In this document: in pieces, positions 35,200 through 36,727 of the stretch
How positions within the stretch are numbered: position 1 is the stretch's first letter
Layout of the letters: the number at the start of each line of letters is the position of its first letter
The notes under the pieces: generated by a model
What the model was told of the DNA's origin: nothing
The model's input: the letters and a program-made list of their open reading frames with translations, nothing else
The model's database searches: none
Program-made: the position numbers and the translations under genes
DNA from: Oscillospiraceae bacterium
Lineage (GTDB): Bacteria > Bacillota > Clostridia > Oscillospirales > Ruminococcaceae
Assembly (NCBI GenBank): GCA_024695445.1
Contig: JAILIG010000039.1
Coordinates: 1-39,712, forward strand
DNA: 39,712 nucleotides
Direction of reading: 5' to 3'

Positions 35200-35228
35200 T
35201 TGACAAATATCCGCTTTTCGGATATGAT
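35200..35228 (+). promoter_or_regulatory. Sigma-A-type promoter of the sigma factor gene
   Basis: Consensus TTGACA (35200-35205), 17-nt spacer, TATGAT (35223-35228), preceded by an AT-rich stretch (35120-35199) and followed by a leader of about 93 nt. Confidence 0.8.
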
Positions 35229-35327: not shown

Positions 35328-35930
35328 ATGGAAGAGTATTCTGTTGAAGCACTTTCTGCATTGTCTGACGAGGCTTTGGTCGCTGTCATGCGGGAGCAAC
35401 CGCAGGCAGATTCGGTTTTAATTCTGCGCTACCGGCAGCTTGTGCTGCGGATCGCCTCTGACTACGCTGCTTCGGCGGCGGATGCGGAGGATTATGTGCA
35501 GGAGGGACTGATCGGACTGCTGACGGCTGTTTCTGCTTATGATCCCGACCGTGCAGCGAGCTTTCGTACCTTTGCAGCGGTGTGTATCCGGAACCGCATC
35601 CGGAATGCAGTGCGTGCCGCGCATCCTTCTGACCGGCCGGTCGGACTGTCTCTGGACGATCCGGACATCGGCGCAGAATCCCTGCTCGCGGACGATGAGG
35701 AATCGCCGGAGCAGCTTTATCTGACGAAGGAGCGAGTCACCGAGCTGTACCGGGAGCTGACGGATGTGCTGAGCAGACAGGAGCGGGAGGTCATCTGTCT
35801 GGCGGCGGGCGGTTTTTCGTATCGGGAAATTGCCGGGCGTCTGCATATCTCCGAAAAGAGCGTGGACAACGCAGTTCAGCGTGGCCGGCGCAAACTCCGA
35901 GCTGTCCGGAGCCGCGGGGAGGAATCCTGA
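35328..35930 (+). CDS. SigH-like RNA polymerase sigma-70 family factor
   Basis: A 200-residue alternative sigma factor. Region 2 is clear (DAEDYVQEGLIGLLTAVSAYDP then FRTFAAVCIRNRIRNAVRAA), followed by a short linker and region 4 with a helix-turn-helix (SRQEREVICLAAGGFSYREIAGRLHISEKSVDNAVQRGRRKL, in parts). The SEKSVDNAVQRGRRKLRA end is characteristic of SigH (Spo0H), the early stationary-phase and sporulation factor, so SigH is the best guess; another small sigma of the SigH/SigI type cannot be excluded. No anti-sigma gene lies next to it. Start ATG after GAGGAGG. Confidence 0.85.
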   Translation: MEEYSVEALSALSDEALVAVMREQPQADSVLILRYRQLVLRIASDYAASAADAEDYVQEGLIGLLTAVSAYDPDRAASFRTFAAVCIRNRIRNAVRAAHPSDRPVGLSLDDPDIGAESLLADDEESPEQLYLTKERVTELYRELTDVLSRQEREVICLAAGGFSYREIAGRLHISEKSVDNAVQRGRRKLRAVRSRGEES

Positions 35931-35944
35931 CGGGATGACAGCCG

Positions 35945-36175
35945 CAGAACGCTGCACAGAACGGCAGACGGTCTGTCCGCACAGTCCGGTTGACTGTCCC
36001 TCCGAGGGTGGGGCCATTGGGCGACCCTGAAATCACATGACCCGGCAGCATTTCTTCCAGCGCGTGTGAAGCTTTTCACCTGCAAACACCTTCGCTTCGA
36101 GGGCAATGCCCGCAGCGATGATCAGCAACCAGTGGTGGCGCAAATACGACCGCGGTCCAAAATTCAAGAATCGAG
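35945..36175 (+). ncRNA. Candidate structured non-coding RNA
   Basis: About 230 nt between the sigma factor and a zinc-ribbon gene without a coding frame that has a ribosome binding site. Pairings visible from about 36003: AGGGT/ACCCT (36005-36028); TCACATG/CGTGTGA (36033-36039 with 36062-36068, one G-U); CTGC/GCAG around CCTTCG-CTT-CGAGGG (36080-36114); GTGGT...ACCGC near the 3' end (36132-36154), closed by the self-complementary GACCGCGGTC. CATTG (36015) can also pair with CAATG (36104), a possible pseudoknot. It resembles a large Firmicute RNA of the raiA-motif kind, but I cannot confirm the family. No promoter is visible, so it may be cut from the sigma factor mRNA. Confidence 0.5.
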
Positions 36176-36185
36176 GAAAAACCAA

Positions 36186-36464
36186 ATGTTTGAAGACAGA
36201 ACCTTAATCTGCAATGAGTGCGGACAGGAATTCGTATTCACCGCCGGTGAGCAGGAGTTCTACCAGGAAAAGGGCTTCACCAATGATCCGAAGAAGTGCA
36301 AGGCTTGCCGTGACGCAAGAAAGAACGCAGGCAGAACCGAGCGCGAGACCTTCACCGCTGTTTGTGCAAACTGCGGCCGTGAGGCAAGAGTGCCGTTCCG
36401 TCCGAAGGAGGATCGTGCGGTTTACTGCAGCGAGTGCTATGCACAGATGAAGAATCAGGAGTAA
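36186..36464 (+). CDS. Small zinc-ribbon protein
   Basis: A 92-residue protein with three CxxC knuckles plus a fourth: CNECGQEF, CKACRDARK, CANCGREARVPF and CSECYAQM, consistent with two zinc ribbons of the probable zinc-binding domain type. FYQEKGFTNDPKKCKACR is the typical first-domain continuation. Such proteins are abundant in Clostridia and may bind nucleic acid or ribosomes; function is not established. ATG 36186 follows GAGGA at 8 nt; a longer frame from 36066 runs through the structured RNA and is not used. Confidence 0.88.
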   Translation: MFEDRTLICNECGQEFVFTAGEQEFYQEKGFTNDPKKCKACRDARKNAGRTERETFTAVCANCGREARVPFRPKEDRAVYCSECYAQMKNQE

Positions 36465-36510: not shown

Positions 36511-36529
36511 AATGAAAGGAATGCTTGCT

Positions 36530-36727
36530 ATGGAAATCACAAAAGATACCGTGATCGGCGAAATCCTCGATACCGATCCTTCGACCGCACCCTTCTTCCT
36601 TGAGATGGGAATGCACTGCCTCGGCTGCCCGGCCTCGCGCGGCGAGTCGATTGAGCAGGCCTGTGCGGTTCACGGCGTCAGCGCAGATGAGCTGGTCGCA
36701 AAGCTGAATGCACATCTCAGCAAATAA
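36530..36727 (+). CDS. DUF1858 redox-disulfide domain protein
   Basis: A 65-residue single-domain protein of the DUF1858 (ScdA-N-like) type. The hallmark is MGMHCLGCPASRGESIEQAC with the CxxC pair, followed by HGVSADELVAKLN. Related domains occur beside hybrid-cluster and iron-sulfur repair proteins, so a redox or Fe-S role is plausible but unproven. ATG 36530 (MEITKDTV) is 9 nt after AAAGGA; an in-frame ATG at 36512 precedes that site. It is enclosed by terminators on both sides. Confidence 0.92.
   Translation: MEITKDTVIGEILDTDPSTAPFFLEMGMHCLGCPASRGESIEQACAVHGVSADELVAKLNAHLSK

Follow-up and report, generated by a model that had tools for sequence, protein, structure and literature searches.

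The translational operator of E. coli thrS is a tRNA-like leader that precedes the Shine-Dalgarno sequence of a synthetase gene and mimics anticodon arms. RNase P and RNase Z read the acceptor end, the T-arm, U(-1) and G(+1) of their substrates. tRNA-like folds are also found within longer transcripts, such as mascRNA of MALAT1 and the Arabidopsis mitochondrial t-element, both cut by RNase P (mascRNA by RNase Z as well), and RNase P is reported to process some bacterial mRNAs, riboswitches and eukaryotic tRNA-like structures (PMC4919922). Among the structured RNAs of Bacillota, the raiA motif (ModT; RF03072) is reported to be tied to sporulation-phase biology (PMC11706538).

The RNA described here lies in a window of 39,712 nucleotides (the whole stretch of DNA that was analyzed), where a non-coding gap of 255 nt (35931-36185) separates a SigH-like sigma factor gene on its 5' side (35328..35930, + strand) from a zinc-finger gene, hereafter zf, on its 3' side (36186..36464, + strand, start ATG at 36186). 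The sigma gene carries Sigma70_r2 and r4_2 domains (Sigma70_r2 match at E 7.4e-20), and the best SigH model matches it at E 8.4e-32 with 110 bits, below the equivalog cut-off of 208. The zf product is a two-domain treble-clef zinc-finger protein of 92 aa with zf_Tbcl (PF13451) and zf_Tbcl_2 (PF23477) / CxxC-x17-CxxC (TIGR04272) domains, and it is present in 273/295 genomes of the order Oscillospirales. Searching the PDB with its predicted fold (mean pLDDT 87.7, pTM 0.49) returned nothing informative (best E 0.16), and the best match of a sequence search of the PDB was E 0.27. Consensus scanning alone placed a sigma-70-type promoter-like site 5' of the sigma gene (TTGACA-17-TATGAT, 35200..35228, + strand), and neither a promoter-like nor a terminator-like site between the sigma and zf genes at 35931-36185. 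Further 3' of zf, at 36512-36727, is a gene with a DUF1858 / hybrid-cluster-protein-associated redox disulfide domain. Counts based on the sigH C-terminus motif under-detect sigH and give no rate.

A sequence-only reading of the window had proposed that a large structured RNA occupies this gap, beside a sporulation-type sigma factor and shortly before a zinc-ribbon start with its own ribosome binding site, and these proposals were borne out: the gap is conserved with the same gene order in genus loci, a Shine-Dalgarno sequence (GAGGA, 36173-36177) lies within a conserved linker recognized by alignment (36158..36185, + strand), and covariation was found, mainly in relatives outside the genus. 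The family suggested for comparison, raiA, did not hold. A Clostridia host, a similar size and a sporulation-type neighbor spoke for it, and both are conserved structured RNAs of Bacillota, but the relatives of the element are tRNA-like instead, and RF03072 (cut-off 101.3 bits) gave no match to 35931-36185, whether at the gathering threshold or with E allowed up to 10. No other Rfam family matched the gap, and the whole window produced one chance-level match to Rfam 15 at E up to 10. A search of 61 related genomes for raiA was also negative (0/61), which alone proves little because the control genomes were silent too. The conserved RNA at 35931-36185 is real and is not raiA, such that raiA or any other known Rfam class is refuted at Rfam 15 sensitivity, with a probability we place close to nil.

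Within the genus, all 29 genomes carry the element, 28 by blastn (54-224 nt matched, 72-92% identical) and one, G014, by a 69.5-bit match to the covariance model R1 at the position of locus L031; blastn against 31 genomes of other genera found it in none. The sigma gene lies upstream and zf downstream in 29/29 loci (that of the window plus 28 others), as they also do at L031, and in 8 genus genomes R1 found one clear copy apiece, the only further matches standing at E 0.42 and E 0.97. Conservation is strongest over the ~150 nt leading up to the zf start. The statement that the stretch lacks a usable frame held in one respect, in that cross-species comparison excludes a protein-coding reading of the gap through indels and stops: in 85 genus pairs at >=85% identity (that is, at least 85%), 197 of 218 gap runs measured 1 or 2 nt, and any given one of the three reading frames stayed open across 120 nt in no more than 3-7 of 26 genus sequences. 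A GTG-start frame in the window (36066-36464) is nonetheless open into zf and in phase with it, so that the statement is valid by comparison only. By eye, L029 also has an uninterrupted frame running into zf.

The proposed stems fared unevenly. Two 5' hairpins, both genus-specific, are kept across species. The first, H1 (CAGTC..GACTG, 35982..35996, + strand), is found in 27/28 sequences (not L020) and exchanges one pair among T-A, T-G and C-G (CAGTC/GACTG 14, CAGTC/GGCTG 6, CAGCC/GGCTG 5, CAAGTC/GACTG 2). The second, H2 (AGGGT..ACCCT, 36005..36028, + strand), has arms that vary by species, such that by eye its shape stays constant while its letters vary in many genus sequences; it is absent from L004, L020 and L027 and its folding energy is ordinary (mean z -0.83; below -1 in 10/25). 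The single-sequence fold of the gap RNA, on the other side, is no stabler than shuffles (z = +1.13; 169/200 shuffles equally good), the suggested CATTG/CAATG pseudoknot is present in 1/28 homologues, and GACCGCGGTC, the end of the suggested compact 3' domain, is found in 2/28 and is the point where the 3' strands of T-arm and acceptor meet rather than a closing hairpin. A first genus structure of our own, with CCA/TGG and CGC/GTG helices, P5 and a TCGC/GCGA pseudoknot, was dropped because it competes with the T-arm and has lower covariation than shuffles (92.4% of cells paired; covariation 0.063 vs 0.072 shuffled; 499/500 shuffles as high), and R1 retains its nested pairs. The genus core is too conserved for covariation to show.

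Comparison with other genera revealed what the slot before zf holds elsewhere. Loci L041, L056, L057 and L058, all from other genera, have a tRNA-like stretch upstream of zf, and across the order the slot often holds such an element, composed of an acceptor stem, a D-arm, a minimal anticodon arm without an anticodon, and a T-arm, with no CCA. A frequent pattern by eye is AUAUGCCCnnnUAGCUUAA..AGAGCGUUGn(4-5)CAAAGGnGnCGGUGCRAAUCCGUCnnNGGGCAAAU, followed by the linker and the Shine-Dalgarno sequence, with the anticodon arm frequently UUG-n4/5-CAA. The order sample comprised 110 loci (30 including that of the window, plus 80), all among the better zf protein matches. In an alignment of 40 elements, A2, 85.6% of cells in a 16-pair acceptor/D/T structure are paired vs 80.9% after shuffling, both partners change in 8 pairs, and double changes fill 42 cells vs 21.9 shuffled; for percentage, cells, pair types and covariation score, none of 500 shuffles came up to the observed value, and 5/500 reached the pair count. 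Two acceptor pairs are often broken (pair 5, 6-76, in 26/40; pair 6, 7-75, in 21/40), so the fold is supported, but its acceptor is poor as a tRNA acceptor.

The order-level covariance model of the element, R2, with matches counted at E<0.01, found it in 41/100 order loci (28 in the R2 training set, 13 not) and in 8/9 additional order loci (all 8 in the training set). The remaining 59 of the 100 had no match at this threshold and some have other or smaller hairpins, which suggests that the full fold is not needed everywhere. In a class-wide set, R2 matched 14/26 loci (3 of the 26 from the same order), a count of elements that falls to 11 because L223, L230 and L237 are real tRNA-Gly by position. 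Searching 8 whole genomes ranked the zf leader top in 6 (59.6-76.6 bits, 150 candidates per genome), with the remaining matches at <=43.9 bits and the five of these inspected being tRNAs; in G000 and G278 every match fell in this lower class (<=43.9 bits). The general tRNA model RF00005 exceeded its cut-off (29 bits) at the zf-leader place in 17 of 45 scanned loci, which were mostly preselected as tRNA-like (batches of 2/5, 4/20 and 11/20; best 51.2 bits), and no other Rfam model was above cut-off at that place in these loci. A loose descriptor that required only acceptor and T-arm pairing could not distinguish real from shuffled sequence and was discarded.

Several other observations concern these leaders. 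Six loci (L146, L150, L153, L163, L186 and L187; 481-nt oriented loci, last 130 nt before zf) have another leader type, by eye a GGCGA..AGC / CGCAUAUA-like pattern, and L187 seems to combine the GGCGA..AGC type with a tRNA-like remnant. In L128, L144 and L230 the slot seems, by eye, shrunk to a bare hairpin, e.g. GCCC-n3-GGGC, followed by an A-rich linker. A start codon falls at -2..+1 in 33/40 A2 elements (29 ATG, 3 GTG, 1 TTG), with 24 of these 33 frames ending after exactly 3 codons (e.g. AUG CCC NNN UAG) and with positions -4 to -1 mostly ATAT; either a start-stop mini-ORF or a side effect of tRNA U8-A9-G10 could explain this. L114 shows a PyrG_leader match below threshold (46.6 bits, cut-off 65) at the 3' end of its zf gene (1749-1824).

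In the window, alignment and profile place an expanded tRNA-like core at 36038..36158 (+ strand), with U(-1) at 36038 and acceptor strands GACC (5', 36039-36042) and GGTC (3', 36154-36157). The D-arm position (GC..AGC, 36048..36061, + strand) is a weakly supported assignment from by-eye alignment with L219, a locus from another genus of the same family, and the expanded anticodon-arm region (36062..36133, + strand) has CCTGC (36079-36083) facing GCAG (36112-36115) in a long insertion similar to one in L219. The T-arm (36134..36151, + strand) has a GGTGG/CGACC stem with 4 of 5 pairs and the loop CGCAAATA, as indicated by T-stem pairing across the genus, where many species read GATGG-CGTRAAT-CCGTC. 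With the 3' strand positioned for best pairing, the genus T-stem has 5/5 pairs in 21/26 sequences, 4 in 3 and 3 in 2; its second pair changes from A-T to G-C in L001, L002, L004 and L028, and the loop is 4-8 nt long.

R2 did not match the element of the window, reaching at best 1.6 bits when its filters were switched off, and RF00005 did not match the gap at 29 bits. An R2 search of 5 chosen loci found genus members L016 (19.3 bits, E 0.0003) and L011 (13.6 bits, E 0.015), and a larger search at E up to 10 found only the same two in the genus (L016 at E 0.01, L011 at E 0.53), with the locus of the window and 23 other genus loci absent. L219 is matched by R2 at 40.8 bits and has, in its D-arm/anticodon region, a 57-nt stretch also with a CCTGC..GCAGG pair. 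From A2, with genus sequences excluded, a profile was made that covers the T-arm and the 3' strand of the acceptor; in 25/28 genus sequences it scored best at the equivalent position (11-28 nt upstream of the start used), the exceptions being L012, L023 and L024. Against a null of 1,120 mononucleotide shuffles, 15 of these 25 scored above the 99th percentile, and the element of the window scored 4.7 (null 99th percentile 1.03, null maximum 10.9, with that top shuffle beating all but two genus scores). We consider it probable that the genus form descends from the order-level element, and as related bacteria have a shortened, anticodon-less tRNA-like structure in the slot that is longer here, the RNA looks like a former tRNA turned control or processing element.

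Like the tRNA model RF00005, the order element has an acceptor stem, UA at 8-9, a D-arm, a T-arm and U(-1)/G(+1), but unlike tRNA it has an undersized anticodon arm, no CCA, acceptor mismatches and a fixed place in one gene's leader, and the version in the window adds a long insertion and the absence of a model match. ARAGORN made 122 tRNA calls over 281 loci, with none on 64 R2 elements and none in 29 genus loci, and CCA followed the element in 0/40 (next bases AAA 16, AAT 12, other 12). With no anticodon call and no CCA, the zf-leader element is not a functional tRNA. One could then suppose a decaying tRNA gene, functionless at present and kept by chance between two genes, as the graded series from near-canonical elements (L119, L131, L210) down to bare hairpins and the ARAGORN silence on all 64 elements would allow. 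Compensatory changes across the order, the extent and identity of the genus blastn matches, and a T-stem kept fully paired in most genus sequences while its loop varies in length all count against such decay, and covariation in these alignments is what disfavors it; we regard it as highly improbable.

The source of the element was sought among real tRNAs. In other orders, the space separating the sigH-like gene from the zf leader holds a canonical tRNA-Gly(CCC) with CCA in 11/26 loci (L222, L223, L224, L228, L230, L233, L237, L238, L239, L243, L245), five of which also have an R2 element (L222, L224, L233, L238, L245), starting 6 nt 3' of the tRNA-Gly in L222 and L245. Gly-CCC was the closest of 8 isoacceptor types for 9/14 elements. 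A comparison with 29 types, which come from 30 tRNA loci of one genome with no Gly-CCC and no Leu among them, gave Thr-TGT as closest for 6/14, an Arg tRNA for 6, Phe for 1 and Asn for 1. Among the 10 elements in both comparisons, Gly-CCC beat the second set only for L210; the neighboring tRNA-Gly, tried as the origin, is no more than a candidate ancestor. The highest-scoring real tRNA under R2 in the genome that supplied the 29 types is Arg-CCT. In other Clostridia, L095 (2127-2390) and L106 (1991-2419) have tRNA-Ala and tRNA-Ile shortly before a short zf gene (2501).

What the element might do is suggested by which of its parts persist. In the A2 elements T stands at -1 in 36/40 and G at +1 in 36/40, and the best-kept parts appear to be those recognized by RNase P and RNase Z, with the anticodon arm apparently able to contract or expand freely. 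The element seems to belong with the downstream zf rather than with the sigma gene, because at two loci promoter-like sites come immediately before it: in L057 it lies behind a TTGACA/TATCCT site with no sigH gene seen adjoining, and in L041 it follows TTGAAT/TATAAT, itself preceded by a terminator-like site (both by consensus scan only). Retention of the parts that these RNases read, the association with zf and the lack of an intergenic promoter- or terminator-like site in the scan together favor a cis element for processing and for the message end. Our leading reading, which we hold tentatively and at somewhat less than an even chance, is thus of a cis-acting, tRNA-derived 5' leader of zf with RNase P-type processing. 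The tRNA-like element from which it would descend occupies the place just 5' of zf in many genera of the order and some other orders of the class, where it retains an acceptor-like stem and T-arm without anticodon or CCA, and the genus form would have gained a long anticodon-arm insertion and two 5' hairpins. RNase P, perhaps with RNase Z, would recognize the acceptor/T-arm module and cut a putative joint sigH-zf transcript between U(-1) and G(+1) (36038/36039), which would give the zf message a structured or defined 5' end of its own and uncouple its amount from sigH. Broken acceptor pairs 5 and 6 and the lack of CCA would weaken recognition by either enzyme. Conservation, synteny, the fold of the order-level element and its kinship with tRNA are shown by the comparisons; a function of the leader in processing or control, joint transcription, cleavage and an effect on zf expression are all predictions from sequence.

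The same tRNA-like ends could instead release an independent, trans-acting small RNA from the sigH-zf transcript through RNase P and RNase Z, for which mascRNA is a precedent (PMC4919922). The conserved linker to the Shine-Dalgarno sequence and the tight spacing to zf (22-45 nt from element end to zf start in 40/40) suggest cis action, however, no terminator-like site was found by consensus scan between element and zf, and in the 6 genomes with the element as top R2 match it always lies before zf, so we think a trans-acting product improbable. In form, mascRNA and the t-element resemble this tRNA-like element, but they are eukaryotic, whereas this element is bacterial, lies 5' of a coding sequence and has a predicted cleavage (PMC4919922).

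The main rival to the processed leader is an operator that mimics tRNA, in which the zf protein would bind its own leader, and perhaps real tRNA, and block the Shine-Dalgarno sequence. It resembles thrS in having a tRNA-like leader before the Shine-Dalgarno sequence, but differs from it in keeping the acceptor and T-arm without an anticodon and in serving a small zinc-finger protein rather than a synthetase. Such an operator fits the persistence of the element by zf in L057 and L041, its ending within 22-45 nt of the ATG in 40/40 and the breadth of the zf protein across the order; it fits poorly with the 59/100 order loci where zf has no recognizable element and with a predicted zf fold that has no informative PDB relative, RNA binding by zf being putative. 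We rate it unlikely, if worth serious attention. Somewhat less likely again is an ex-tRNA regulatory leader, in which the order-wide, anticodon-less RNA would act as a receptor and zf would sense tRNA, or tRNA processing, to set its own synthesis. Among the matches listed in the open-license PMC literature, we recognized no description of a tRNA-like zf leader.

The processed-leader reading and its rivals concern a core protein to which the libraries searched assign no role, and the leader offers a testable handle on it. The loci form a graded series from tRNA to mRNA leader, with a neighboring tRNA-Gly, near-canonical and anticodon-less elements, the expanded form of the window and bare hairpins elsewhere. 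If the receptor reading were true, living intermediates would span the path from a near-canonical tRNA to a 120-nt elaborated RNA. The locus also gives a way to ask whether RNase P influences how the sigH operon is expressed in gut Clostridia.
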